DNA of 62,377 bases from a virus. Position numbers and translations under genes: made by a program. Each line of letters begins with the position of its first letter. Within the stretch, counting starts at the first letter, position 1. The DNA is taken from positions 1 to 62,377 of the IMG/VR virus record IMGVR_UViG_3300032288_001948; one strand, 5' to 3'. A model generated the notes under the pieces. It was not told the DNA's origin, ran no database searches, and was given only the letters and a program-made list of their open reading frames with translations. This document shows positions 1,839 to 61,083 of the stretch, piece after piece.

Positions 1839-2486
1839 CTAGCCGCAGTCTACCTCCCGAATCGGCGGCGGACAACCGTGTGCAAGTTTCCACTTGATGC
1901 GGCTCTTGTAGGCTCGTGCCGTTTTGGGGTTGATGTTCATTTTCTCGGCGACCTCGATCCAGTGGAGCCCGTCCGCAAACAGCCAATACGCTCTGATTAA
2001 CCGTGGGCTGAATGTCTTGCGGCGCCAGTAGCATTTACCCTTCGCCAACGGGATGCTCTTTTCCTCGGCGGCGGCGCGTACCGCATACAGCACGGTCGTA
2101 TGATCCTTGTTGATCCAGCGGCCGATCTTGGAAAGCGTCTGGTGATGTTCCTGATTCAGCCGGTAGCAGAACTCACGACGAGCCACAGCCAGTCGCTTGT
2201 GGCGTTTGTGGCTGACCAGATCATCCGGGTGAACCTTGTGCTCAAGGCACAGCTCGAACATGAGCTGCTTGATCCACTTGGGCATGTTCGGGACATTGAT
2301 CTCGCCGAACTCGGCGGGCGTCTCGATGACATCAATCAGCGGCACGTAACAGTCCGCGGCCTTCGGTTTACGTTCTTTCGGGGGCTTTGGGGGCTTCGGC
2401 AGTTTCGCCGGTTTGAGTTTGATTAATCTTGGTTTCGGCGGCGCCGATCTACGCGGTGCACCAGCATACGGAATTAGATACGCCAT
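1839..2486 (-). CDS. DnaA domain IV-like DNA-binding protein
   Basis: A 215-residue product; ATG 2486 is preceded by GGAGG at 5 bases. A Pro/Lys-rich linker (about 10-45) leads to a segment at 72-140 with the layout of bacterial DnaA domain IV: an initial helix around LMFELCLEHKV, a basic VARREFCYRL helix, and the signature GRWINKDHTTVLYAVR (DHTTV at 128-132), which in DnaA reads the DnaA box. A second helix-turn-helix lies at about 158-200 (WIEVAEKMNINPKTARAYKS). There is no ATPase domain. It could mark the phage origin, compete with host DnaA or act as a regulator. Confidence 0.8.
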   Translation of the reverse strand: MAYLIPYAGAPRRSAPPKPRLIKLKPAKLPKPPKPPKERKPKAADCYVPLIDVIETPAEFGEINVPNMPKWIKQLMFELCLEHKVHPDDLVSHKRHKRLAVARREFCYRLNQEHHQTLSKIGRWINKDHTTVLYAVRAAAEEKSIPLAKGKCYWRRKTFSPRLIRAYWLFADGLHWIEVAEKMNINPKTARAYKSRIKWKLAHGCPPPIREVDCG

Positions 2487-2506
2487 CCCATCCTCCAAGG
2501 GGATAT

Positions 2507-3764: not shown

Positions 3765-4052
3765 TTAGTTTGTCGGCATAGTAGATGGCAGATAAATACT
3801 CATGATTAAGTCACCTTTAACTGACACGTATATCTCCTCCTCGGTTGGCCAGTCTTTTGGCACAACAGCAAGCAACGCTCTCATTGTGCAGTCGATTGAC
3901 GGGGCAGCAATCGTGCCGTCCCGCCACAGCGGGCGTTTAGTCCCGGTGTCGAATCCTGTTGATTCCAGATACTTGGTCAGCCGCGTTTCCATGCGGCGAC
4001 AACGATCAACCACCTCCGTCATTTTCGATTCAAGTTCAAATGTCTCTCGCAT
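3765..4052 (-). CDS. Hypothetical protein
   Basis: A 95-residue product. The start at 4052 overlaps the previous stop as TAATG, and the ribosome-binding site GGAGGT is encoded by the last codons of the upstream gene. An N-terminal helix (KMTEVVDRCRRMETRLTKYL) is followed by a mixed segment with TEEEIYVSVKGDLIMSIYL. No family recognised. Confidence 0.6.
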   Translation of the reverse strand: MRETFELESKMTEVVDRCRRMETRLTKYLESTGFDTGTKRPLWRDGTIAAPSIDCTMRALLAVVPKDWPTEEEIYVSVKGDLIMSIYLPSTMPTN

Positions 4053-4915
4053 TACACACCTCCAAACGCGTTCATGAATCCAGACATATCTTCCATGATA
4101 CGCTTGGCCTCGTCAGCCACCATTGTGCGGGTGGCTTTATTCTTACGCAAATCCTTGGGCGCATAGCCCACGACAGTGCGCGCAATATCCTCGGTGATAG
4201 CAGTCAGCTTCGGATCATCCAGCACATTGAGCGCCGGCAACAACTCGACCAGCTCCTCAAGATTCTGAACAGTCGAGTCGCGGAAGATGTCGTCGGTGGA
4301 CATCTTAGCGGCGAAGTGACCCAGCACCGTGGACAGTCGAGTCCACACATCACCCATTGCACGAGAGATGCGGGATTGCATGGCGCGCTCCATCTCGTCA
4401 CGCACCGCACGTTCCTCGGCCTCGCTTGACAACTGCACCCGGAAGTCATTGGCCTCGGTCACAGCATCAATATCCAAGCTGATATAGAACTTGCGATGCA
4501 GCTCGTTAGCCGATGGATAGTCTGACGGATTGAACAGATCACCCATACGGAAGCTGGCTTGATCACGGGCCTTGGGATAGCCCACGTTCAAGAATGTATC
4601 GACCGCCGCATAGAACTCGCCTTGCAGTTTGCCGTGTTCCTCGACGAAGTTCTGATACATCTTGCGGGTCAGCAGCCGATCACCGTTGTCCTTCCACGGC
4701 AATGTCTTGTCGTAGAAGTGATTGCGGACAGCGCCGGCAGCAGACACGATGGTCTTGAGCGACTCTTTAGGAATCAGGTGTTTATTAACACGCGCCGCAT
4801 CAGTCTCGGCGCCAGCATCGTTGGTGACCTTGGCCGACGCAGACTTGTCGAGGCGATAGCCCATCCACACGCCGATCTGGAGATTAACAACCATGCAGTC
4901 ATTGACGATAGACAT
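4052..4915 (-). CDS. Helical protein associated with the MoxR/VWA genes
   Basis: A 287-residue, mostly helical product with conserved-looking segments around LIPKESLKTIVSAAGAVRN and LPWKDNGDRLLTRKM. It lies 40 bases downstream of the small gene that follows the VWA/metallopeptidase gene. The order and size fit the accessory protein (DUF3150-like) that often accompanies phage and bacterial MoxR-VWA modules; I recognise this only loosely. It starts at 4915 with GGAAC upstream, 16 bases after a 21-bp palindrome. Predicted partner of the ATPase/VWA pair, exact role unknown. Confidence 0.6.
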   Translation of the reverse strand: MSIVNDCMVVNLQIGVWMGYRLDKSASAKVTNDAGAETDAARVNKHLIPKESLKTIVSAAGAVRNHFYDKTLPWKDNGDRLLTRKMYQNFVEEHGKLQGEFYAAVDTFLNVGYPKARDQASFRMGDLFNPSDYPSANELHRKFYISLDIDAVTEANDFRVQLSSEAEERAVRDEMERAMQSRISRAMGDVWTRLSTVLGHFAAKMSTDDIFRDSTVQNLEELVELLPALNVLDDPKLTAITEDIARTVVGYAPKDLRKNKATRTMVADEAKRIMEDMSGFMNAFGGV

Positions 4916-4931: not shown

Positions 4932-4952
4932 TTTGTTAGATTATCTAACAAA
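4932..4952. promoter_or_regulatory. 21-bp palindrome, copy 1
   Basis: TTTGTTAGA-TTA-TCTAACAAA: perfect 9-bp arms (10 with the flanking T/A). It sits 2 bases after the stop of the 4955-5212 gene and 16 bases before the start at 4915. As DNA it looks like a dimer operator; as RNA it would form a stem with a 3-base loop just upstream of the ribosome-binding site. Confidence 0.85.
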
Positions 4953-4954
4953 GT

Positions 4955-5212
4955 TTAATACGTTAATTGAGCAGCCATGATAGCCGTGTCTACATCTGGA
5001 TATTCTTTCATTGGCTTGACTTCTTGATTCGCGTCCCCTTTCACGTCCAGCACATACCAATGCCCATACCAAGATACAATAGCGTATCGACAATGGGGCG
5101 GACATAATTTTACAAGGTTAATTAAGTCAGTTGACCCCTCATGGTTAATCCACACGACGCAGCTACCGCCGCACACGAACGCCTTGATGATGAGACGCTC
5201 GGGCGCTGTCAT
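4955..5212 (-). CDS. Hypothetical protein
   Basis: An 85-residue product starting at ATG 5212, which overlaps the stop of the VWA/metallopeptidase gene as ATGA. It contains three cysteines (CGGSC and LCPPHC) and a strand-rich aromatic core (AIVSWYGHWYVLDVKG), then an acidic helix. Cys and His residues could bind metal, but no family is recognised. Coupled translation suggests it belongs to the MoxR/VWA module. Confidence 0.6.
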   Translation of the reverse strand: MTAPERLIIKAFVCGGSCVVWINHEGSTDLINLVKLCPPHCRYAIVSWYGHWYVLDVKGDANQEVKPMKEYPDVDTAIMAAQLTY

Positions 5213-6333
5213 ATCCGCACCACCTGACCGATCGGCACGTCAACCTTGGTCGTGCAGACAACAATCAGCGGATACTCAGGCTCGACGTTCGGCCACGGTG
5301 TATAGCCGTCGGTCACGAGCACAGCGATCTCCGGTTGATACTGGTCGATGTGTTGTAACGGCACACGCATATCAGTTCCTCCACCGCCTTTCGGATCAGC
5401 CTTGATGATGTCGCCGGCCTCGAACTCCTGTTCACCAGCGACCTCGGTGTCAGCCCAAACGAGGCGGATACGTTCGGGATTGACAGCCTCACTAATAGCC
5501 GCGACCTCACTGGCAATACGCGCCAACTCCTGATTAGTAATAGAGCCTGACGTATCGCCGATCACGACAATCTCACCCATACGCTGGCTGTGACGTGACG
5601 GCAGATAAACATCGGTGAAGCGACGGTTACGACGTGACCACGACTCGTTGTCTTTGGTGACACGGGTCATATACTCACGCAGCAAGTCTTGCCACGGCAC
5701 GGTCGGATTGAGTATCTCGTCAACCAGACGCGCCACACCCGCCGGCATCTTGCCGGCCATACGCGCCATGTTGGCAGCTTGAGCAACCTTCTGCTGTATC
5801 TGTTGCTCGGCCTTGGCACGCGCCTCGGCGTCGATGTTTGCAGGTTCACGCACATCTTCGCCCATGCCGGATGTATCTTGGTGCAGATCACCCGGCCCAG
5901 CTTTACCTTCGCCGTTCTGTTTGCGCTTCTTGTTCTCCTTATCCATCTCCTGCTTGAGCATGTCATACACTTGCTCGGCAGACATACCCTTGAATCGCGG
6001 ATCGAACAGACAGCCTTGGATCACCTCGAACCCTGCCTCATGCAGGATCAGATTGATGGCGTAGTCACACGCAATATTCCACAGTTGAGGATTGCGTGAG
6101 CCACGGCGCAAGCCATGCTTGAACACAATGTGCATGACCTCATGAGCCAGCACGAACATGACTTGCGGCAGCGTTAGACCCTCGATGAACGCAGGGTTAT
6201 AGAAGATCGTCAACATATCCGTCGCCGCTGTTGGCAGCGTGGTGTCGACGACCATCGGTGTGGACATGACGAGTGTTGCGAAGAACACTTGCGTCAATAA
6301 CATTTTAGCCTTGGCTTTCTGCATCTTGTTCAT
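5209..6333 (-). CDS. HExxH metallopeptidase-like / VWA domain protein (DUF2201 type)
   Basis: A 374-residue product. Residues 1-110 carry the zincin motif AHEVMH (HEVMH at 64-68), followed by NIACDYAINLIL as in DUF2201 N-terminal domains. A charged Lys/Glu linker (about 125-200) leads to a VWA-like C-terminal domain with VVIGDTSGSIT (a MIDAS-like DxSxS variant), GGGGTDM and VTDGYT. This two-domain layout is typical of VWA partners of MoxR ATPases. With the upstream ATPase it probably forms a chaperone-like or protein-remodelling pair. The ATG at 6333 has AAGGAA upstream and overlaps the previous gene by 29 bases. Confidence 0.85.
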   Translation of the reverse strand: MNKMQKAKAKMLLTQVFFATLVMSTPMVVDTTLPTAATDMLTIFYNPAFIEGLTLPQVMFVLAHEVMHIVFKHGLRRGSRNPQLWNIACDYAINLILHEAGFEVIQGCLFDPRFKGMSAEQVYDMLKQEMDKENKKRKQNGEGKAGPGDLHQDTSGMGEDVREPANIDAEARAKAEQQIQQKVAQAANMARMAGKMPAGVARLVDEILNPTVPWQDLLREYMTRVTKDNESWSRRNRRFTDVYLPSRHSQRMGEIVVIGDTSGSITNQELARIASEVAAISEAVNPERIRLVWADTEVAGEQEFEAGDIIKADPKGGGGTDMRVPLQHIDQYQPEIAVLVTDGYTPWPNVEPEYPLIVVCTTKVDVPIGQVVRI

Positions 6334-6751
6334 TTGCTGATTCCTTTAGTTTAGATGGCATGTCGCTGACAATCGAGGTGCTGATACCTAACCAACCCTG
6401 CACATCTCGCCCGCCGTTCTCATATTTAATGTCGTTATACTCCTCGCCGACCTCGGCATACTCATACGACAATCCCTCGGTGCCGGGTTGTTCGCAGGCT
6501 ATATCGTCGATGATTCGTTGCCATGCGTCGACTTCCTCATAATCAGGATACCACTTGATGCTCTGAACATTCAGGTCAATGACGCTTGTAGCGTGCAATT
6601 CTCGCACACCCTTAACATCATACCGCTTAATATCTGTTGCAAACCAGCTATTCACAGCAGCATTGTTCTCAAGTTTGAGCCGAGTCCAGAAAGCCTGAAC
6701 AATGTCAGGCTCCCCGTAAATTAAACAGCGCACATCACTTCGGTATCCCAT
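6305..6751 (-). CDS. Hypothetical protein (MGYRSDV family)
   Basis: A 148-residue product beginning MGYRSDVRCLIYG, a start shared by many phage and plasmid hypothetical proteins. Alternating strands and helices, with an acidic centre (YPDYEEVDAWQRII, YAEVGEEYNDIKYENGG). It lies between the MoxR-like ATPase and the VWA gene, overlapping the latter, so it is part of the same module. The start has GGAAA, 15 bases after a palindrome. Function unknown. Confidence 0.65.
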   Translation of the reverse strand: MGYRSDVRCLIYGEPDIVQAFWTRLKLENNAAVNSWFATDIKRYDVKGVRELHATSVIDLNVQSIKWYPDYEEVDAWQRIIDDIACEQPGTEGLSYEYAEVGEEYNDIKYENGGRDVQGWLGISTSIVSDMPSKLKESANEQDAESQG

Positions 6752-6766
6752 GTTATTTCCTTTCGT

Positions 6767-6787
6767 TTTGTTAGACGATCTAACAAA
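6767..6787. promoter_or_regulatory. 21-bp palindrome, copy 2
   Basis: TTTGTTAGA-CGA-TCTAACAAA, perfect arms. It abuts the stop codon of the MoxR-like gene with no spacer and lies 15 bases before the start at 6751. Confidence 0.85.
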
Positions 6788-7813
6788 TTAGTCAAACACG
6801 ACTTTGAAGCGCTTGGAGAAGTCGATAAACTCCTTGGTGGCGAACAGCTTGTCGTCACGCTTGACAGCCAACTGCCACGCCAGCACTGTGAACTCAGGGT
6901 CGAGACGGCACAGGAACTTGTGGTAGGTGGACACGTTTTTGTTGTCGAGTGAACCAGACACAGCGACAGTGATCGCATACGTCATGCTCGGCTCGTCAGG
7001 CAGCTCGACAGTCTCAGGGTCTTTGAGGATACGCGGCATGTAGTCCTTAACCTTGGCCCACACGTCAACGAAGCCCCAGAACTCAGCGGCAGCGCCATCA
7101 CCAACGGCGCCGGCCATCGCGATTTGTTTGGTGCGATGCGTCATAGTAGTATCTGCGTAATATTTCATCGCCTTGTCCCAAGTGCGGGGCGTGGCGAATG
7201 TCTTGTCGGGCTTGGCCGGATCGAACGTGGACAGCAGCGGCTTGCGGAACTGAATGAACGCAACCCACTCCATCGGCCAACCAGAGATTTGAGCATATTC
7301 ACACGACGCATCGACATCAGTGATCAACTCGATATGTGTGCCACGATTAGCCAACGGCAGAGCCATACGAGACTGAACACCACGGTCGCCGTCACGATTG
7401 GATGCAGCAACGATACGCACATTGGGCTTGAGCACATGTTCGCCGCAACGACGGTCATTGATGATCTGATAGCACGGCGCCTGAACACCCGGATTGTTAC
7501 CGCCGGTGATCTCGTCGAAGAACAGGATGATCAGCTTGTCATCGGGAAAGTTATCATTGCCAACGAACGGCAGCGTTGCTGGCAGGTTCCATACAGTTGC
7601 GCCGGCATCGGCAGTTGGGATGCCACGCAGATCGACAGAATCATACATAGATAGTCGGATGTCGCACAGCACAGCATCAAGCTCGTCAGCAAGCTGCTCG
7701 ACAATAGATGATTTACCGCCACCCGGTTGGCCCCACATGAACACAGGCTCATTGAGGCGGATCGCCACATCACGGATGACTTGCTTGGCTTCGGCTACAT
7801 TGACAGCAAACAT
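6788..7813 (-). CDS. MoxR-family AAA+ ATPase
   Basis: A 341-residue product. Walker A GQPGGGKSS at about 28-36 and Walker B LIILFFDE at 94-101. A sensor-like VRIVAASNRDGDRGVQ is followed by LANRGTHIEL, where an arginine-finger region is expected. The length and the neighbouring VWA gene fit the MoxR/RavA branch, whose members remodel target proteins together with VWA partners. The start at 7813 follows GAAGGGA, 19 bases after a palindrome. The target in infection is unknown. Confidence 0.88.
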   Translation of the reverse strand: MFAVNVAEAKQVIRDVAIRLNEPVFMWGQPGGGKSSIVEQLADELDAVLCDIRLSMYDSVDLRGIPTADAGATVWNLPATLPFVGNDNFPDDKLIILFFDEITGGNNPGVQAPCYQIINDRRCGEHVLKPNVRIVAASNRDGDRGVQSRMALPLANRGTHIELITDVDASCEYAQISGWPMEWVAFIQFRKPLLSTFDPAKPDKTFATPRTWDKAMKYYADTTMTHRTKQIAMAGAVGDGAAAEFWGFVDVWAKVKDYMPRILKDPETVELPDEPSMTYAITVAVSGSLDNKNVSTYHKFLCRLDPEFTVLAWQLAVKRDDKLFATKEFIDFSKRFKVVFD

Positions 7814-7832
7814 TGGATTATCCCTTCAGTTG

Positions 7833-7853
7833 TTTGTTAGATTGTCTAACAAA
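7833..7853. promoter_or_regulatory. 21-bp palindrome, copy 3
   Basis: TTTGTTAGA-TTG-TCTAACAAA, perfect arms. It starts 1 base after the stop of the 7855-8643 gene and precedes the MoxR-like gene by 19 bases. Confidence 0.85.
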
Positions 7854-7854
7854 G

Positions 7855-8643
7855 TTATTTGGTTAGCAGGAGATGAGTGAACTCGGTTGTTTTCTTACGC
7901 GACACAACACCACACGTCGCTACACGTTTGCGGGCTTGCCAGTCCAGAGTATTGAAGTCCAGATGCAGCAGATCGCTAACGTGCATGGGCTGACGAGAAT
8001 AATAATGTGGGTTAGACACATAGCTTCGCGTTGCAGGGCTATAGACGTTTGGCACATGCACCGTTGATGGTTGATTTACTTTAGCCTCCTCACTTAACTC
8101 GTTCCATGCCTTGCATGCGGCACGGATTGTGTTGATATGATCCTTCTCGTCTCGGTTAAGTTTGTCCACCTCGGTCACACGGATCGGACATGCGCCGATC
8201 GGCGCCTCATCTGGTGCAGCATAATAGACCTGCGCCGTATTGCGTAAGCGTTTGGGTATGCGCTTATTTCCCTCCTGTTGGTAGACCGGTGACTGGATAC
8301 GCACCACATGGTTGGAGTCGTAGTCGATCCATAACGCTTGCGCGCCTTTGTTATTGAGCCATGATGGTTTGACAATATCACCATCCGGCGTCGTCAGTTT
8401 ATATTGAGTGAGGACACCCGGCCAGCGATGATCGTCGCTGTTGGCGATAGCGATATTCTGCGCCTCATAATGCCGGCGATACTTGGGCTTGTAATAGCCC
8501 TGTGTGACAATGAACTCGCCGGTTTCGAGTTGAATGAACGGCGCATGATAATAGGATCGTGCCGATATAAGTTCGACCTCATTGTAAAACTCTTTGAAGC
8601 GATCCCACTTTTTGGTTGCGTGGTTGAATGGTTCGAGTTTCAT
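7855..8643 (-). CDS. Hypothetical protein
   Basis: A 262-residue product rich in Tyr and His (YYHAPFIQLETGEFIVTQGYY). The first half is strand-rich, followed by a helical part (KDHINTIRAACKAWNELSE). No catalytic motif is recognised. It is framed by palindromes on both sides and lies directly upstream of the MoxR-like gene, so a link with that module is possible. The start follows GAAAGGAAAG. Confidence 0.6.
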   Translation of the reverse strand: MKLEPFNHATKKWDRFKEFYNEVELISARSYYHAPFIQLETGEFIVTQGYYKPKYRRHYEAQNIAIANSDDHRWPGVLTQYKLTTPDGDIVKPSWLNNKGAQALWIDYDSNHVVRIQSPVYQQEGNKRIPKRLRNTAQVYYAAPDEAPIGACPIRVTEVDKLNRDEKDHINTIRAACKAWNELSEEAKVNQPSTVHVPNVYSPATRSYVSNPHYYSRQPMHVSDLLHLDFNTLDWQARKRVATCGVVSRKKTTEFTHLLLTK

Positions 8644-8658
8644 TTTACTTTCCTTTCG

Positions 8659-8679
8659 TTTGTTAGATGATCTAACAAA
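8659..8679. promoter_or_regulatory. 21-bp palindrome, copy 4
   Basis: TTTGTTAGA-TGA-TCTAACAAA, perfect arms, 2 bases after the stop of the 8682-9494 gene and 15 bases before the start at 8643. Confidence 0.85.
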
Positions 8680-8681
8680 TA

Positions 8682-9494
8682 TTAAAACTGGTTAGACAGC
8701 CGGCGCCACTTGTTTGCACTGGCTTGGACGCTGGACACATCATAGCCAGCGATCGACGGCACCTCGACCTTGATGATGCAATTCTCCACTTTATAAATGG
8801 CGTCGCGCACAGCATCAGCCGCACGGTCATGATAGTCGTCGAATATGGCGTTCCAGCCGTCCGGGCCATCACGAAACAGCTCGATCGTCTGCACCCAGCC
8901 GTTGCTATATTTGGGGTCGCGCAAATACCCTTGTCTCATTTGCGGTTGGCCCATCGCCGCACGCGCCTTGACCCATGCTTTGAAGTCATTGAACCCATAC
9001 GCCTTGAGCACAGCGTTAGCCTTGGCGGTATCGACGCGATACTTGATGAACGGGGCGAACATGGCCGGATCGACGGGCAGCCAGTCACCATTATCCGCCC
9101 GCATCAGCCGCACAGAATCACGCGCCATGCGGAACGTCATAGTAGTATTATCCCGCTCTAGATGCAGCAGGTATCCGACCCTGCTGTTGAACGTGGTGCA
9201 GATGCCTGATGGTGTAAGGCTGCGCGCAAACATATCAGTCGATATGGACTCATACGCATTGAGCACGATCGTGCCGTCAGGATGATAGACCACCACATCC
9301 GTGCCATGCAGACGGAAAGCAATCCCGTCGTTGTTAAGCTGGCGCATCGCCATGTGCTTTTTGTTGCGACCAGCGATCGGGCGCGTGTTGGTATCGCCGC
9401 TGCCACGCCACGGGTCAGTCTTGCCCCAGTAATTGAGCGCATCGCTGTAGCAGCGAATCGGTGGGATCGAGTAGGTGTCGATGTGAAAAGCCAT
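8682..9494 (-). CDS. Hypothetical protein
   Basis: A 270-residue product. The N-terminal part contains YSDALNYWGKTDPWRGSGDTN and AGRNKKHMAMR; the middle is strand-rich (IAFRLHGTDVVVYHPDGTIVL), followed by a helical C-terminal half. The pattern (an aligned strand domain with H-G-T-D/V-V-x-Y-x-P-D-G) resembles several phage proteins of unknown role. Its ribosome-binding region keeps CCTTTCAGTTTGTT on the plus strand, the same context as the palindrome copies but without the second arm. Confidence 0.6.
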   Translation of the reverse strand: MAFHIDTYSIPPIRCYSDALNYWGKTDPWRGSGDTNTRPIAGRNKKHMAMRQLNNDGIAFRLHGTDVVVYHPDGTIVLNAYESISTDMFARSLTPSGICTTFNSRVGYLLHLERDNTTMTFRMARDSVRLMRADNGDWLPVDPAMFAPFIKYRVDTAKANAVLKAYGFNDFKAWVKARAAMGQPQMRQGYLRDPKYSNGWVQTIELFRDGPDGWNAIFDDYHDRAADAVRDAIYKVENCIIKVEVPSIAGYDVSSVQASANKWRRLSNQF

Positions 9495-9506
9495 GTGATA
9501 TTCCTT

Positions 9507-9728
9507 TCAGTTTGTTTCAGGTTCGTCCACACCGCCATGTGTGGCGATGTAATCGGTCAGGTCGAGCAGGGTCTGCGTCAATGTCTTACTGAACCCTGCC
9601 ACAATGATGCGTGACTTGAGTATCTCCAGCATGTCCGGTGTCGAGTGCATATCTGTCTCGACAATGAAACGTAACAACTGATCGAACGCAATCAGCGCAC
9701 GTTCGTGGTCTGTGAACCCAGCAGCCAT
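9507..9728 (-). CDS. Small helical protein, paralogue of the 10,312-10,527 product
   Basis: A 73-residue, all-helical product. It aligns end to end with the product at 10,312-10,527: FDQLLR against YDQLLR, then R-x-x-x-A/S-G-F/I-S and LLDLTDYIATHG against LTDLIEYVNEHG. The start follows GAAAGG directly after palindrome copy 5. Function unknown; a small helical-bundle regulator or protein-binding adaptor is conceivable. Confidence 0.65.
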   Translation of the reverse strand: MAAGFTDHERALIAFDQLLRFIVETDMHSTPDMLEILKSRIIVAGFSKTLTQTLLDLTDYIATHGGVDEPETN

Positions 9729-9738
9729 GTGCTACCTT

Positions 9739-9759
9739 TCTGTTAGATCATCTAACAAA
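9739..9759. promoter_or_regulatory. 21-bp palindrome, copy 5
   Basis: TCTGTTAGA-TCA-TCTAACAAA, one mismatch in the outer arm. It overlaps the last four codons of the 39-residue gene at 9748-9867, so its sequence also supplies that gene's stop codon. It precedes the start at 9728 by 10 bases. Confidence 0.8.
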
Positions 9760-9867
9760 CATGAGGATGTCGAGCATTGTCCACGCTGTGACGAACGTGA
9801 TGAACAGCATGGACACGAACACGGCGCCGGCGCCGATGATTTGAATAGAGATGGGTGCGTCATTCAT
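9748..9867 (-). CDS. 39-residue single-helix membrane protein
   Basis: A small gene starting at ATG 9867, with GGAG seven bases upstream in the last codons of the preceding gene. The product begins MNDAPISIQIIG, then runs hydrophobically (AVFVSMLFITFVTAWTML) and ends DILMFVR, with the last residues and TGA encoded by palindrome copy 5. One transmembrane segment is likely. Function unknown. Confidence 0.6.
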   Translation of the reverse strand: MNDAPISIQIIGAGAVFVSMLFITFVTAWTMLDILMFVR

Positions 9868-9871
9868 TTGT

Positions 9872-10102
9872 TTACTCCACAGTTGGTTCATGAAAGTCAG
9901 TGGCGTCGTCGAGCACCGGCTTGTCGAGCGCCTTAATCAGTCGATCGGTTAATTCTTTCAGCTCATCCATAGTGTCGCCATGATAGAATGGCTCACCATA
10001 GCTAAACGGCAGCTTGGTGCTGTCGTCGTAATACACCTCGGCGAACATATAGAGCGTCTCACCTGCCTCGGTCTTACGCACAACGCGATGATTCCAAAAC
10101 AT
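9872..10102 (-). CDS. Conserved phage hypothetical protein (WNHRVV family)
   Basis: A 76-residue product; ATG 10,102 is chosen because AAGGAGAC precedes it. The sequence MFWNHRVVRKTEAGETLYMF and then AEVYYDD matches a very common small phage/plasmid protein type with M-W-N-x-R-V and E-V-Y-Y-D motifs, followed by an acidic helix and a C-terminal KALDKPVLDD. The function of this family is not established. Confidence 0.7.
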   Translation of the reverse strand: MFWNHRVVRKTEAGETLYMFAEVYYDDSTKLPFSYGEPFYHGDTMDELKELTDRLIKALDKPVLDDATDFHEPTVE

Positions 10103-10112
10103 GGTTGTCTCC

Positions 10113-10319
10113 TTAGAACGGCATGTCATGTGTTTGGTTTAACCCCAGTTGCAGTCTGGTCATGCGAATCTCATAGTCCAGCGCCACGAGGCGCGGGCCA
10201 TCCTCAAGCCACTCGGCGTCTATGAAGTCAGCTTCCAGACGCTTGAGCTTGACGTTAAGTGGCTCGGCCTGAAACGCCGGGCTCGTGTAGTCGATCGGTC
10301 TGATGTGCGATTTACTCAT
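10113..10319 (-). CDS. Hypothetical protein
   Basis: A 68-residue product. ATG 10,319 lies in the last codons of the upstream gene (ATGAGTAA overlap). Mainly helical (LNVKLKRLEADFIDAEWLEDG, then LVALDYEIRMTRLQLGL). No recognisable family. Confidence 0.55.
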   Translation of the reverse strand: MSKSHIRPIDYTSPAFQAEPLNVKLKRLEADFIDAEWLEDGPRLVALDYEIRMTRLQLGLNQTHDMPF

Positions 10320-10527
10320 TGTCTTTTTTCCATTCATCTGTGCCATGCTCGTTTACATACTCAATCAGGTCGGTCAGCATGATCCACACCCGATAGGATA
10401 TGCCTGATGCTTTGAGGCGATGGTTCAGCGCCTTGATCGTGTCGCCGTCAGCCAGCTCCGTCGAGCACATGGCCCTGAGAAGCTGGTCATACAGCACAAT
10501 CATTTCCTCATCCTTTGTATAGCTCAT
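10312..10527 (-). CDS. Small helical protein, paralogue of the 9,507-9,728 product
   Basis: A 71-residue product starting at 10,527 as ATGA with the previous stop; GGGGAG lies upstream. It aligns with the 9,507-9,728 product along its full length (YDQLLR, A-S-G-I-S, LTDLIEYVNEHG), at a level that implies an old duplication. Function unknown. Confidence 0.65.
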   Translation of the reverse strand: MSYTKDEEMIVLYDQLLRAMCSTELADGDTIKALNHRLKASGISYRVWIMLTDLIEYVNEHGTDEWKKDNE

Positions 10528-10754
10528 AGGATTGTGCTCCCCTTATAGATGCCGATCAAAGCCCGGCGATCCATCGCACGGGTGTAGCCCTGCTTCGGGC
10601 CGGCTGGCACGATCGTCCAGCGTGAACGCTCTGTCGCCGCCATCATGTCCCCACACTTGAGGCATGTGTCATAACCCAGATGAGCGCGCCGGGCTGGATA
10701 CGGCTCGTCACAAACAGTGCAGTGATATTGGATGATACGTTTACCAGTGCTCAT
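10524..10754 (-). CDS. Small zinc-ribbon-like protein
   Basis: A 76-residue product. ATG 10,754 is chosen over an upstream in-frame codon because GAAAGGA precedes it. It contains HCTVC and TCLKCG, a C-x2-C / C-x2-C pair 17 residues apart, typical of a four-cysteine zinc ribbon, flanked by basic residues (YPARRAHLGY). The C-terminal part may be a small strand domain. It could bind nucleic acid or a host protein. Confidence 0.6.
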   Translation of the reverse strand: MSTGKRIIQYHCTVCDEPYPARRAHLGYDTCLKCGDMMAATERSRWTIVPAGPKQGYTRAMDRRALIGIYKGSTIL

Positions 10755-10822
10755 GGTTTGTCCTTTCGTCGTTTGAGGTGGGCGGTTTTGTTGGATCATG
10801 TCGCTTCGCTTCCATTCCCAAC

Positions 10823-10843
10823 TTTGTTAGACAATCTAACAAA
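10823..10843. promoter_or_regulatory. 21-bp palindrome, copy 6
   Basis: TTTGTTAGA-CAA-TCTAACAAA, perfect arms, about 70 bases upstream of the zinc-ribbon gene start and outside any coding region. Confidence 0.85.
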
Positions 10844-11002
10844 CATAAAAGTTTTAATAGATGAATGAGTGGATGAATATATAAATGAACGCGCGGTGGC
10901 GGGACGCTACCCCCGCCACACGCAGTAATCACCAGTCGAGGGGCGGTCGACGCCCAATCGAATGGCTTAGACATATTCACGGTGATAAACAGCACACAGC
11001 GG

Positions 11003-11023
11003 TTTGATAGATGATCTAACAAA
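11003..11023. promoter_or_regulatory. 21-bp palindrome, copy 7
   Basis: TTTGATAGA-TGA-TCTAACAAA, one mismatch. It lies about 40-60 bases downstream of the leftward promoter candidate at 11,065-11,093, a position where a bound protein could block elongation. Confidence 0.75.
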
Positions 11024-11064
11024 CTGGATGGACGCGTCACGCGCAGCACCCGACTGATAGCTAA

Positions 11065-11093
11065 AGACTAGCATATAAAGGTTTGATTGTCAA
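11065..11093 (-). promoter_or_regulatory. Leftward sigma-70-like promoter candidate
   Basis: On the minus strand a perfect TTGACA (11,093-11,088) is followed by 17 bases and TAGTCT (11,070-11,065), a weak match to TATAAT. The position upstream of the leftward gene run starting at 10,754 fits an early promoter. Confidence 0.45.
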
Positions 11094-11253
11094 GTTAAAT
11101 CTTTTGATTACAACCATGAAGTTTTAGCGCGGATTAGTGCTGGTCGATGGTCAAATTACCACGAGTTTATAGGATGATTGCATGGTGTAGGCGGATTATA
11201 TGCGGAATAGGCGACTTATATTCCTAATAGTCAAAAAATGGATTTATGTAAGT

Positions 11254-11284
11254 TATTGTAATCGGCCCAAATAGACAGGTAGTC
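11254..11284 (+). repeat. 31-bp inverted repeat, left arm
   Basis: It matches the reverse complement of 11,421-11,451 at 27 of 31 positions, including an uninterrupted 16-base core AAATAGACAGGTAGTC. The arms are 136 bases apart. Confidence 0.85.
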
Positions 11285-11420
11285 AACTTTCAAACTAGTA
11301 TGAACGATTTTTACTGGAAAACGCGTTATATTTTCGTGATGTTAATGGTTGATGCAATACGCCGGTGGCGCACAAAAAATAAAAAAACCTTGTTTATATT
11401 TATTTTTATATGGATATTCT

Positions 11421-11451
11421 GACTACCTGTCTATTTCGGCCAATATCAATA
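11421..11451 (-). repeat. 31-bp inverted repeat, right arm
   Basis: Partner of 11,254-11,284. The AT-rich spacer between the arms has runs of A and T (for example CAAAAAATAAAAAAACC) and could melt easily. Confidence 0.85.
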
Positions 11452-11545
11452 AGTTCTGGTATGTCAACATAGGCAACTGGTCTAAAAGCACCGCCTTTTG
11501 GTAGACTAATCCTGTCTTTTCGTGGCAATAACAAGCACTTGTGGT

Positions 11546-11566
11546 TTTGTTAGATCATCTAACAAA
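11546..11566. promoter_or_regulatory. 21-bp palindrome, copy 8
   Basis: TTTGTTAGA-TCA-TCTAACAAA, perfect arms, 10 bases to the left of the first iteron. Confidence 0.85.
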
Positions 11567-11576
11567 ATTCCGTGAC

Positions 11577-11639
11577 TTTAATAGGTGTATCCTGTCAACA
11601 TATTAATAGGTGTAAATTTATAAAGTTTTAATAGGTGTT
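11577..11639 (+). repeat. Three iterons with 25-bp period
   Basis: TTTAATAGGTGTA (11,577), ATTAATAGGTGTA (11,602) and TTTAATAGGTGTT (11,627) repeat at exactly 25-bp steps, so AATAGGTGT starts at 11,580, 11,605 and 11,630. The spacing is close to 2.4 helical turns. Iterons of this kind bind replication initiators or regulators. Confidence 0.8.
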
Positions 11640-11748
11640 ATGTTTGCGTGCGTTCGAAAGCACCTAACTACTATGCCGAGATTTGATTGAGGCATGTGCG
11701 CGATTGATTCGCGCGCTGCATCTGTTTGATTAAATGTAAACATATAGG

Positions 11749-11777
11749 CAAATAAAAAGGGGCGCTCTCGCGCCCCT
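11749..11777 (-). terminator. Intrinsic terminator after the 11,785-12,411 gene
   Basis: Read leftward, an 8-bp stem AGGGGCGC / GCGCCCCT with a GAGA loop is followed by TTTTTATTTG. It lies 8 bases beyond the stop codon of the 208-residue gene, so that gene is probably a separate transcript. Confidence 0.85.
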
Positions 11778-11784
11778 CTCTGGA

Positions 11785-12411
11785 TCATTCGCAATTCGCA
11801 ATCTCGGCTTGCGCTGCGGCAAGCGCCACGGTTAGCGCCTTCACGAAAGCCGCGCTGGCTTGCGGCTTTACGATCGACAAAAGCGCCGCGAGATTTTCCC
11901 GTGCAAACATTGCCGCTTCGCGCGCCGTGGCCGGCTTATAGTCAACGCCAATGGCCGGCTTTTCGGCTTTCGCCTTTTCAGGCTTGGCCGGCGTCGCAGC
12001 CTTGGCCGTTTCCACCTTGGCCGTTTCGGCTTCCGTCTTGCGACCGGCGTTGTCGCGCTTGCCGCCGCGCTTATCAGTCGCGACTAGCCCGGCTTCCTTC
12101 CTAATGTGAAAGGCATAATTGCGCGCGGCGCTTGCCGCTTTGTCATACCATGTCGCGCGCGCTTTCGCGGCTTTCGCCTTTTCAGCCGCGACCATGCCAA
12201 GCGCGGTTTTCGCGTTGCCGCCCTTTACATTGGCGATAACGTATTGAACCATGCGCGCGCCCCAAAGCCACACTTCCAATTCGGCAATCGCCTTCTCGCC
12301 CTTGCAGGCTTTGGCGCGAGCGATAACCTTGCCGCGCGCGTTGCCTTCCGCGTGCACGAGCGCAACGTCGGCGGCATGAGCGGACATGATCGCGAGAAAA
12401 TCATTAGACAT
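11785..12411 (-). CDS. Ala/Lys-rich protein, first leftward gene
   Basis: A 208-residue product with its own promoter region and terminator. The N-terminal 110 residues are helical, with aromatic patches (LEVWLWGARMVQYVIANVKGG). A KRGGKRDNAGRK turn leads to a low-complexity Ala/Lys/Glu/Pro linker (TAKVETAKAATPAKPEKAKA) and a C-terminal helical piece. The linker resembles histone H1-like tails. As the first gene leaving the divergent control region, it may be a very early host-takeover or DNA-binding protein; that is inference. Ribosome-binding site AAAGGA. Confidence 0.65.
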   Translation of the reverse strand: MSNDFLAIMSAHAADVALVHAEGNARGKVIARAKACKGEKAIAELEVWLWGARMVQYVIANVKGGNAKTALGMVAAEKAKAAKARATWYDKAASAARNYAFHIRKEAGLVATDKRGGKRDNAGRKTEAETAKVETAKAATPAKPEKAKAEKPAIGVDYKPATAREAAMFARENLAALLSIVKPQASAAFVKALTVALAAAQAEIANCE

Positions 12412-12455
12412 TGTTTTATCCTTTCATAATTAAATCATCATTTGATGACCCTCAT

Positions 12456-12484
12456 ATTGAAATATACTTTTGTTAGATTGTCAA
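12456..12484 (-). promoter_or_regulatory. Leftward promoter candidate overlapping palindrome copy 9
   Basis: On the minus strand, TTGACA (12,484-12,479) lies inside the palindrome, followed by 17 bases and TTCAAT (12,461-12,456). The -10 match is poor, so the call rests mainly on the perfect -35 and the position ahead of the first leftward gene. Confidence 0.4.
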
Positions 12485-12489
12485 ACAAA
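12469..12489. promoter_or_regulatory. 21-bp palindrome, copy 9
   Basis: TTTGTTAGA-TTG-TCAAACAAA, one mismatch relative to the consensus. That single change creates a perfect TTGACA on the minus strand, so a protein bound here would cover the -35 element. Confidence 0.8.
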
Positions 12490-35400: not shown

Positions 35401-37131
35401 ATGGTCGATGCTGTCGGAGGTGCGGTAGCTTCGGCTCCAGTCGCGTGGCAATCTGTCGCAGCGACAAAGGGCGGCTATACTCTTTCGGCGTCGACCGGCT
35501 CATTCAGCCTCACAGGGCAGTCTGCCCTCTTTAAGATAAACCATCGGCTGATTGGCGTCGCCGGGGCATTTACACTCACCGGTAATCCGGCGGCGGTCGT
35601 CGAGTACCATAAGCTGCACGCCTTCTACGGCGGCTTTGCGCTCACGGGACAGGCGTCCCGGCTTCTCTATAACCACCGCCTTGCGGCCGGTACCGGCTCG
35701 TTCACGCTTACTGGTCAGACGTCTCGGCTTCTCTATGGCCACCGGCTGGCGGCCGAGCCGGGCGCATTTACGCTCACCGGCGGCGGCGCATTTCTCAAGG
35801 AAGGTCATCGCCTCGCGGCCGAACCGGGGGCATTCACGCTCACCGGCGGCGGGGCATTTCTTCAGGAGGGTCACCGCCTCGTCGCTGACGTTGGTCGGTT
35901 CTTTTGGAATTTGCCGGTCTATGGTCCGGTCGCCTCGGAAGCCGTTGGCGCGTCGCCAGTCGCCGCCACGGTCAATTATGGTGAGGTTGCGTTTGAATAT
36001 TCGCGCCGGCTGACCGCCTATACGGGCGCCTTCACCCTTACCGGTAATCCGGCGGCGGTTGTTGAGTACCACAAACTCAATGCCTTTTATGGCGGATTCA
36101 CACTTACCGGGCAGGCGGCGCGCCTTTCTTACGGCTACCGTTTACCGGTAGACGCCGGCGCGTTCACACTTACCGGGCAGAACGCAGAGCTTGATCGATC
36201 GCAACGGCTCTATGCGGGTACCGGTGCTTTTACGCTCACCGGGGTCGCTGCCAGTCGGTCGTGGACAATCTGGACTCAAACCGGGGCATTTACCCTCACG
36301 GGATATCCGGCGTTCACGCGTCAGAATCATCGGCTCGCGGCCGGCGCCGGCGCCTTCACGTTCACGGGCAACACCGCGTTCTTGCTGCGCAAGCCGGCGC
36401 TCGGCGCTTTTGGCGGCAACTTCACGCTTACCGGATACCCAGCAGTATTGCTGGGGGATTATTATCTGCGCGCCGCGACCGGCGCATTTACGCTTACTGG
36501 GCAGGTTGCCGCTCTCCGGCGCGGTTATCGAGTCACGGCGACCGCGGGGTCGTTTACGCTTACGGGCAAGGCGATCCGGCCACTCGTCTACCACCGTTTG
36601 GTGGCGGGTGCAGGCGCATTTACGCTCACGGGCGGCGGTGCGTTCCTCAAAGAAGGGCACCGACTGGCTGCCGGCGCCGGCACGTTCACATTCACCGGCT
36701 ACGATGCTGAGCTGGTTTACGGCTCCAAGTTTGTCGTGGAGCCCGGCGCTTTCACGCTTACAGGATACCCGTCTACCGGCATCTATGTCCCGGTACTTCT
36801 GGCGCGGACGGGCACGTTCACACTCACAGGGTACCCAGCATATCGGCAGGCCAAGTTTATTCTTCGCGCCGGCGTCGGCGCCTTCACGCTTACTGGTTAT
36901 CCGACGATCGAGGGTCGGCGCCTGTTTGCTGCGCCCGGTCAGTTTGTTCTTACTGGATTTCCTGCTAGAATCCGTGACAGCGCCAAGGGCATCGCGCGGT
37001 TCCGGTGGTACAATAGCGCCGCGACCGTCATGGATTTCGAGACGCCACCGATCAGCGCCGTTATCGCCGCCTCAGTGGTCGTCAAGACCGGGATCAGTTC
37101 TGGCAAGAAACGGTTCAAACAGGTGAGATGA
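35401..37131 (+). CDS. Tail protein with 21 copies of a G-x-F-x-L-T-G repeat
   Basis: A 576-residue product made almost wholly of about 21-residue units with the consensus TGAFTLTG-xx-A-x-L-xxx-HRLAA. I count 21 clear units between residues about 30 and 525, with one degenerate interruption near 160-200. Units 2-3 (NPAAVVEYHKLHAFYGGFAL) recur almost exactly as units 7-8; three units with GGGAFL-K/Q-EGHRL are almost identical, showing recent internal duplication. The C-terminal 50 residues are unique (ARFRWYNSAATVMDF). The strand-rich solenoid is probably a fibre or spike. AT-balanced, GC-rich codons as in neighbours. Confidence 0.75.
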   Translation: MVDAVGGAVASAPVAWQSVAATKGGYTLSASTGSFSLTGQSALFKINHRLIGVAGAFTLTGNPAAVVEYHKLHAFYGGFALTGQASRLLYNHRLAAGTGSFTLTGQTSRLLYGHRLAAEPGAFTLTGGGAFLKEGHRLAAEPGAFTLTGGGAFLQEGHRLVADVGRFFWNLPVYGPVASEAVGASPVAATVNYGEVAFEYSRRLTAYTGAFTLTGNPAAVVEYHKLNAFYGGFTLTGQAARLSYGYRLPVDAGAFTLTGQNAELDRSQRLYAGTGAFTLTGVAASRSWTIWTQTGAFTLTGYPAFTRQNHRLAAGAGAFTFTGNTAFLLRKPALGAFGGNFTLTGYPAVLLGDYYLRAATGAFTLTGQVAALRRGYRVTATAGSFTLTGKAIRPLVYHRLVAGAGAFTLTGGGAFLKEGHRLAAGAGTFTFTGYDAELVYGSKFVVEPGAFTLTGYPSTGIYVPVLLARTGTFTLTGYPAYRQAKFILRAGVGAFTLTGYPTIEGRRLFAAPGQFVLTGFPARIRDSAKGIARFRWYNSAATVMDFETPPISAVIAASVVVKTGISSGKKRFKQVR

Positions 37132-59198: not shown

Positions 59199-61083
59199 AT
59201 TTCCAATCCTCTAATTGACCCCACGACGGACCAGCTTTGCAGTCCCACGGCAACGGTATCGGCGGGGTAAAATCCCACGCTTGCTGGTACGGCAGATTGT
59301 CCAGCTGGTCTTTGACGGCACGCGCTGCCCGTTTGACGTTGACATCCGGCACATAAAGATAGATGCCGTCGTGCAAGTCCCACGCGAAGTACGCGCCCAG
59401 CTCAATCAGCAATGGCTTCAAGACCTGAAGCGCCAGATATTTCTGATCGGCGCCGGTGCCCTGAATCCTGTAGTTGATCGAGGTGGACCCCATTGACCAG
59501 CCACGTTCTTTCCAATCCCCGGTGACCTGCACCCGGCGACCGGCGAATGTTTCGACGTAGCCTGTCTTTTTGGTGAGGCTGATCTGGCGTTCCCAGTACA
59601 GCGGCACTTTCGCGTAGGCCGTCAAATACGTCCTGCGGATCAGATTGGCTTCGTCTATATTCATCGGCAGCCCGTACTGCACACGAGCAACTGTTCGAAG
59701 TTTAGGAGCAGACGTTCGATATTGCAAGCTGAGATTCGCAACTTTACCTAGCTGTCTACGATCTTTCGCCTTGGGGTGCTTATCTTTAATATCCTGTAAC
59801 ATCTTCTCGTATGTGATGTTGGCGATCGCGGCGCCCATGTACGAATGCGCGTCCTCGCCCGGCCCACACAGATTCAGCATGACTGGATCGCCGGAGGCTA
59901 TGGCCATCCAACGAAATTCTTGACCGCTCGCATCAAACTCCATGAGTGTGTATCCCGGCGGAGGGGTGATGATCCCACGAAATTCTGCGCCACGTTTCTC
60001 CTGATGAATCGCAAAACCGGTTTGCCTTTCATCTTTATTTCGACCCTGCTTGGACGCGTAAGTGAGCCGCCCGGAGTAGGTGCCGAATACGATCGCTTGA
60101 GGGTGGGTGCGGCCGTCTTGGTTATAATCCACGGACGCCAATGGCGCTTCTGCGAACTTGGTTCGATTGTTGAGCGCTTCGCGATAAGCCCGAAGTTCCT
60201 TTGCGCGCTCGTCGATGAACGACAATTCATGTAGCGTTTCCTTGTCGGTTGCCCGGCTTACCTTGCCGGTTTTCTTGCCCGTATTTTCTTTCTGGACTGG
60301 CAGTCCCCACTCATCAAACAGCAAAACCGCCAGCTTTGTGGGTGAGCGGATCACCTGCTCGGTCACCCCATGAGGTGCGAGTAATTCGAGCTTATTAGCC
60401 CCCACCATCGTCAGGTTGGCCGCCAGTTCCCTCGTCGCCAGCGTGTCCACGACCATGCCCCGGACGTTCGCCAGCGCCACGACCGGCAGACTTTCTGCTT
60501 CGATCAGCGCCGCACGCAGCTGAGAGGGGCATAGTAGATGATAGAACTGCTTGGCCAGAATCAGCGTGAAGATCGTATCCCGTACGTTATATTTGTGCAG
60601 CTTGGCCCGCGCCTCGGGAGATTCGTCGTGAAAGTCCACGCCTTCCTCATACCCGGCATACCGCGGCATGTACTCGGCAACGGCCGTCTTGAGGCTATAG
60701 GACTTCTTCTTTGATCGATCCGTCTCGTACTCCGGCTCGATGGTCAGGTGCCGCCACAGCAACATGCCGTCGAGCCACTTGGCCCGCATCACCAAATCCT
60801 CCAGTCCGTACGCCACAAGCCAGCCGATATCGAACACCGTGTTCCAGCCCACGATGGTCTGGTCATTATAGATCGCCGACTCCAAGAACTCCTGCATCAT
60901 GTCTGCCGTGGGGTTCAGGCCGCCGGCGATCGGAACGATCTGCTTGCCCTGTTTCTGCACCACGGCGAGGCTGGTGGCCCACGCTCTTTCCTGCTGAACA
61001 CGCCATGGTTGAAGGGCGTATTCGTGTAACGCCCCCGACGTTTCGAAGTCGAAGGCGATGAACTTGTCATCGTCCCAGATCAT
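59191..61083 (-). CDS. DNA polymerase, family A
   Basis: A 630-residue product. 3'-5' exonuclease: FIAFDFETSG (D12, E14), VGWNTVFDIGWLVAYG, and YNVRDTIFTLILAKQF as third motif. Polymerase: motif A LMEFDASGQEFRWMA, motif B RRQLGKVANLSLQYRTSA, motif C AWDLHDGIYLYVPDV. The usual HDE of motif C is HDG here. No 5' nuclease domain. The start at 61,083 overlaps the previous stop as TAATG, with GGAGAGAA in the codons of the previous gene's LGEK tail. Replicates the phage genome. Confidence 0.92.
   Translation of the reverse strand: MIWDDDKFIAFDFETSGALHEYALQPWRVQQERAWATSLAVVQKQGKQIVPIAGGLNPTADMMQEFLESAIYNDQTIVGWNTVFDIGWLVAYGLEDLVMRAKWLDGMLLWRHLTIEPEYETDRSKKKSYSLKTAVAEYMPRYAGYEEGVDFHDESPEARAKLHKYNVRDTIFTLILAKQFYHLLCPSQLRAALIEAESLPVVALANVRGMVVDTLATRELAANLTMVGANKLELLAPHGVTEQVIRSPTKLAVLLFDEWGLPVQKENTGKKTGKVSRATDKETLHELSFIDERAKELRAYREALNNRTKFAEAPLASVDYNQDGRTHPQAIVFGTYSGRLTYASKQGRNKDERQTGFAIHQEKRGAEFRGIITPPPGYTLMEFDASGQEFRWMAIASGDPVMLNLCGPGEDAHSYMGAAIANITYEKMLQDIKDKHPKAKDRRQLGKVANLSLQYRTSAPKLRTVARVQYGLPMNIDEANLIRRTYLTAYAKVPLYWERQISLTKKTGYVETFAGRRVQVTGDWKERGWSMGSTSINYRIQGTGADQKYLALQVLKPLLIELGAYFAWDLHDGIYLYVPDVNVKRAARAVKDQLDNLPYQQAWDFTPPIPLPWDCKAGPSWGQLEDWKYD

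Follow-up and report, generated by a model that had tools for sequence, protein, structure and literature searches.

A palindromic sequence, TTTGTTAGA-N3-TCTAACAAA, occurs nine times in the 62,377-base IMG/VR record of a tailed phage (the window, that is, the whole stretch of DNA analysed here), and comparison with related phages indicates that these nine dyads almost certainly serve a phage-made regulator as DNA binding sites. Further, we propose, with a probability of about 0.6, that the dyads are the operators of one dimeric phage protein, most likely the one encoded by the first gene of the early operon, and that this protein would repress the operon as a roadblock. The structural genes of the window run rightward from about 12.7 to 49.5 kb, and the early and replication genes run leftward from 12.4 kb to the left end and from 62 to 49.5 kb. 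The dyads are distributed along the initial 7.5 kb of the leftward early operon and all genes concerned lie on the minus strand. The positions, together with those in the related phage L025, are as follows.

4932-4952: dyad 1, TTTGTTAGATTATCTAACAAA, 2 nt past the stop of 4955-5212(-) and 16 nt before the ATG of 4052-4915(-).
6767-6787: dyad 2, adjoining the stop of the MoxR-type ATPase 6788-7813(-) and 15 nt before the ATG of 6305-6751(-).
7833-7853: dyad 3, 1 nt past the stop of 7855-8643(-) and 19 nt before the ATG of the MoxR-type ATPase.
8659-8679: dyad 4, 2 nt past the stop of 8682-9494(-) and 15 nt before the ATG of 7855-8643(-).
9739-9759: dyad 5, one mismatch, spanning the stop of 9748-9891(-) and 10 nt before the ATG of 9507-9728(-).
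10823-10843: dyad 6, in the leader of the zinc-ribbon gene; the homologous place in L025 has a different dyad (136-156).
11003-11023: dyad 7, with a single mismatch; a promoter-like -10 lies 41 nt upstream; the L025 dyad at 324-344, of different sequence, lies downstream of the homologous promoter.
11065-11093, minus strand: promoter-like TTGACA-N17-TAGTCT for the leftward early operon, spotted by eye and kept in L025.
11546-11566: dyad 8, non-coding, next to three direct repeats of AATAGGTGT at 11576-11640; the L025 counterpart (908-928) is a different dyad with similar repeats beside it.
11785-12411, minus strand: first early gene, 208 aa, encoding the candidate dyad-binding protein.
12469-12489: dyad 9, with a single mismatch; it precedes the first early gene by about 58 nt.

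Six copies are perfect and three have a single mismatch (TCTG at 9739, TTTGATAGA at 11003, TCAAACAAA at 12469), each one-sided and uncompensated. The sequence-only reading had counted nine copies at these positions and none elsewhere, which was borne out: no tenth copy was present in the window at up to 3 mismatches, a looser scan at up to 4 mismatches returned nothing beyond the nine dyads, and 100 dinucleotide shuffles of the window gave 0 copies. Its description of the placement was also correct, with five copies at stop codons, 10-19 nt before the next ATG, and four in non-coding DNA. The three central bases, which it had taken to vary freely, are pyrimidine-N-purine in all nine copies (T..A in five, C..A in two and T..G in two), and therefore the two-fold symmetry of the dyad extends inward. 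Outside the window the exact motif was found only as single copies, in 4 viral contigs (one being the relative L026) and in 15 bacterial contigs from unrelated taxa; a host regulon was rejected on account of these isolated bacterial occurrences. A consensus promoter scan of the window was uninformative and did not list 11065-11093, whose -10 is too weak.

The terminase search yielded 80 relatives, in which dyad families were sought by an unbiased dyad count. Indeed, phages sharing the terminase carry multi-copy dyads of their own in the same early region; these span 14-22 bp and are two-fold symmetric, and their sequence differs by phage. G1 and G2, two contigs with a MoxR 54% identical to that of the window, have TTTGTDAAYNNNRTTHACAAA 14 times each, and G3 (L022-L024) has TTTGTGACACGTGTCACAAA 11 times, its 11 copies, written TGTGACACGTGTCACA, being identical across 16 bp. 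L025 has TTTGAGACRGnnYGTCTCAAA in five copies (family start TTTGAGAC), and the other families begin with TTGAGTCA (L035, 7-8 copies), AGTAAGAC (L041), TTTGCTACGC (L049), GTGTGC (L067, L071, L073, L074; 10 or more copies in L067 and L073), AGATGAGA (L079, six copies), TGTTAACG (L084 and L085; seven copies in L084), GTAGGCA (L089), GGTAACT (L092), TGTTAGGT (L098) and TTTGTGACG (L103, five copies). The matching test on shuffled sequence gave 1-3, which makes the families with three copies (L041, L075, L089, L092) less secure than those with more. No dyad family was detected in the 10 kb upstream of the terminase in L047, L050 and L101. The contig of L050 (G008) encodes a tyrosine integrase at 59721-60188.

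When the relatives were examined for the motif and its position, the expected placement at gene boundaries was recovered, with a motif sequence that varied by phage type. The orthologues of the MoxR-type ATPase (the gene after dyad 3) and of the 262-aa protein 7855-8643 (the gene after dyad 4) are preceded by their own dyads in G1 and G3, and the dyads just upstream of these genes in the window, G1 and G3 have three different sequences. Several G3 dyads follow directly after the stop codon of the upstream gene; in G1 and G2 the arrangement is often a left arm containing the stop codon, a centre with an SD-like GGAG or GAGG, and a right arm abutting the ATG. L026 has a dyad of the window type at the place homologous to dyad 9 (12469). 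For the 270-aa and 262-aa proteins, scans brought up no viral relatives. Among the named relatives only Pseudomonas phage Rollin (TerL 48%) shows substantial similarity. The more distant Rhizobium phage RHph_TM3_14A (L105/L106, TerL 34%) has 55 GTTACC-N5/6-GGTAAC sites at up to 1 mismatch in its early and late regions; 25 of these lie on gene boundaries or in gaps, where 15% would be expected. With their variable spacing in a distant phage, these sites could represent a less strict form of the same scheme.

The comparison with relatives also distinguishes between DNA and RNA. As RNA, the window dyad can form a 9-bp stem with a 3-nt loop (-6.5 kcal/mol), and dyads lie 10-19 nt before start codons, from which RNA stems acting in processing or translational control before ribosome-binding sites had been suggested. 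We regard such stems as very improbable, since the equivalent feature at the same places in G1 and G2 fails to fold (0 to -1.8 kcal/mol), pair 6 being mismatched in 8 of 8 scored sites, and the L084 dyad reaches only -1.4 kcal/mol. Moreover, the symmetry continues across the would-be loop, and in G3 and L084 it runs through the axis with no loop left; the arm mismatches of the window are uncompensated, and neither compensatory changes nor a stable fold was found in the relatives. Perfect copies are also located within G1 coding DNA (two, at 4351 and 9063) and in long non-coding stretches. The symmetry up to the axis and the inability of an RNA hairpin to form in two relatives thus argue for DNA operators. 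The proposal of a dimeric DNA-binding regulator with many sites is accordingly well supported by the axis symmetry, by the conserved placement and by sites that switch together with one gene.

That gene is the first early gene. L025 has a TerL 97% identical to that of the window and much flanking DNA 94-95% identical, and its first early gene block is replaced, the first gene being 13% identical to the window's; in the same short stretch it carries its own dyad sequence at three places homologous to 10823, 11003 and 11546. L026, likewise known from a short stretch (a single dyad in 3.6 kb of upstream DNA), has a TerL of 91%, DNA of about 72-82% and a first gene of 62% identity to the window. 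Across 19-20 phages, a partial Mantel test of dyad similarity against first-gene similarity with TerL taken out gave r = 0.39 (p = 0.0004), rising to r = 0.50 (p = 0.0002) without L054, L026 and near duplicates and to r = 0.59 (p = 0.002) among sequence-related first genes only; given the first gene, little or no association of dyad with TerL remained (p between 0.03 and 0.94 across the sets tested). In a forward test, L054 was chosen for a first gene close to that of G1, and dyads of the G1 type were then found in it. The dyad sequence therefore switches with the first early gene, which makes the first-gene product (11785-12411) the likely binder as judged by these comparisons.

The dyads could instead be bound by another phage protein, with the first gene co-varying as part of an exchanged cassette, which we consider rather unlikely. 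The first gene does lie inside the block in which L025 departs from the window, its product has no known DNA-binding fold, and the comparison of L025 and L026 is limited to short stretches, so that their other early genes are not comparable. In addition, two XRE-type regulator genes adjoin dyads in G1 (L016, 2944-3477 and 6643-6873) and are not found in the window. However, dyads 10823 and 11003 lie outside the exchanged block and were switched too, the correlation given TerL persists across many phages, and the HTH genes of the window were not found in G1, G2 and G3. Among the candidates that had been named from the sequence, the zinc-ribbon protein was rejected, its gene being nearly unchanged in L025 despite different dyads, and so were the small HTH proteins (1149-1403 and 1839-2498), which have no homologue in the dyad-bearing G1, G2 and G3. 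The product of 1839-2498(-), of 219 aa, has a match to DnaA domain IV (PF08299, 3e-12) and a C-terminal HTH-like segment.

The first-gene product itself gave no Pfam, PDB-sequence or solid PHROG match, and no recognisable DNA-binding domain, HTH included, was seen in its family. Its AlphaFold model (pLDDT 71.5) has helices at 2-107, a disordered basic linker at 112-157 and a helical hairpin at 163-207, and fold searches with this model returned nothing below E = 0.6. Between the window and L026, residues 83-126, which comprise the last long N-terminal helix and the basic tail, are best conserved (75% against 55-65% elsewhere), and on the model they form a plausible DNA-contact region. An iterated profile search joined the first genes of the window, L026, L030 (two copies), L035 (two copies), L075, G1, L054, L027 and L049, and weakly those of L025 and L103. 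A second group comprises the first genes of L067/L073/L074, L083, L084, L089 and L092, whose model is poor (pLDDT 53). Profile comparison did not connect the two families; the first genes thus fall into at least two unlinked families, which may or may not go back to one ancestral protein. Paired paralogous first early genes with dyads around them are present in L030 (7381-8840) and L035 (4720-6608).

From the observed repeats, symmetry, placement, divergence and first-gene co-variation, we infer binding by the first-gene product and repression. One dimeric phage-encoded protein, presumably the product of 11785-12411, would bind the dyads along the 7.5 kb at the head of the leftward early operon. 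Sites 12469 and 11546 flank the first gene, and its product would thereby control its own gene. Once made, the protein would occupy sites past the early promoters (11003) and between genes, where it could stop or slow down early-operon transcription like a stoperator roadblock. Early expression would be turned down, and a co-infecting phage of the same specificity might be silenced. Several dyads are not near any visible promoter, which is compatible with a roadblock and is no proof of one; with one site about 41 nt past a promoter-like element and others between genes without visible promoters, the layout is closest to that of stoperators.

An opposite effect, in which the dyad-bound protein activates or antiterminates early transcription, seems unlikely. 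The sites do recur along an operon that needs read-through, and the first gene is made first. Against this, the 11003 site and its L025 counterpart lie some 40 nt downstream of the -10, a position that suits a roadblock and not an activator, most dyads have no adjoining promoter, and the known multi-site phage systems of such layout repress (PMC6550527, PMC10516654).

Centromere- or nucleoid-type sites, on which a protein is loaded for DNA organisation or segregation, would also be many and scattered. The bacterial parS consensus is TGTTTCACGTGAAACA, with which the G3 dyad agrees at 12 of 16 positions. We nevertheless hold this explanation to be improbable: the dyads follow the gene boundaries of one operon, those of other relatives have no parS likeness, and a ParB_N domain was found in 0 of 11 relatives, for which ParB/parS in particular was rejected despite the parS-like G3 site. 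Integrase, resolvase and ParB_N were likewise not found in the window, G1, G2 and G3, whose records may be incomplete. Mobile or neutral palindromic repeats of the REP type, with no specific binder, would account for many copies in non-coding gaps and are extremely improbable, as near-identical phages differ in dyad sequence at homologous places and the placement by orthologous genes is conserved, neither of which is expected of drifting or mobile repeats.

The repressing operators proposed here have their nearest parallel in the Cluster A mycobacteriophages L5 and Bxb1, which have 20-30 scattered repressor sites, most of them away from promoters, that block elongation (PMC6550527). In both cases many copies of a short site lie mostly off promoters and at gene boundaries, and the site motif diverges between relatives together with the repressor (PMC6550527) or, here, the candidate binder. 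However, the L5-type sites are 13-bp, asymmetric and of fixed orientation, while the dyads here are 14-22 bp and two-fold symmetric; the Cluster A repressor has an HTH, unlike the candidate protein, in which none is recognised; and Cluster A phages are temperate with an integrase or parABS (PMC6550527), whereas no integrase, resolvase or ParB was found here. The SPbeta element SPBRE is similarly a short element repeated between the genes of one phage genome, bound by the master repressor MrpR/YopR of unusual fold; it differs in being a 15-bp motif at promoters, in the tyrosine-recombinase fold of MrpR and in belonging to a prophage (PMC10516654). The Cluster K SAS and ESAS resemble the dyads as gene-start repeats in the non-structural half of the genome, and the inverted-repeat consensus of ESAS varies between subclusters, but SAS is a 13-bp asymmetric ribosome-site-like sequence and ESAS consists of two 17-bp inverted repeats with a variable spacer and no assigned function or binder (PMC3203893). 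The KorB operators of plasmid RK2 share the scheme of one regulator with many dispersed palindromic operators; KorB is a ParB-family clamp (PMC11790492), whereas the ParB_N domain was not found here.

As a broader and tentative suggestion, the first gene of this large group of apparently non-integrating tailed phages might represent a new all-helical DNA-binding family that silences early operons from many palindromes, with co-switching specificity. If true, this would be a stoperator-like immunity or competition system without lysogeny, switching even at a TerL identity of 97%. Concerted change of a regulator and its multiple sites is hard to evolve, and to our knowledge few good examples exist (lambdoid and L5-like immunity). 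Here a single terminase-defined group provides more than 12 specificities found in nature, for which the binder candidates are clear, and some of its near-identical phages differ both in dyad and in candidate. Should the first-gene family prove to bind DNA, a new protein family would be added; should the system operate during lytic growth, immunity of the repressor type would extend beyond temperate phages. Early shut-off or the exclusion of related phages may be its biological use, and the cultured relative RHph_TM3_14A opens the way to experiments.

The early genes of the window include, besides the MoxR-type ATPase, a neighbour matching PHROG 1314: the protein of 5209-6333(-) has this as its best PHROG match, labelled HNH endonuclease. 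Other phages have proteins of this kind annotated with a metallopeptidase domain, and the HNH name is probably mistaken. In addition, 35401-37131 of the window encodes a protein of repeated GAFTLTG-type units.
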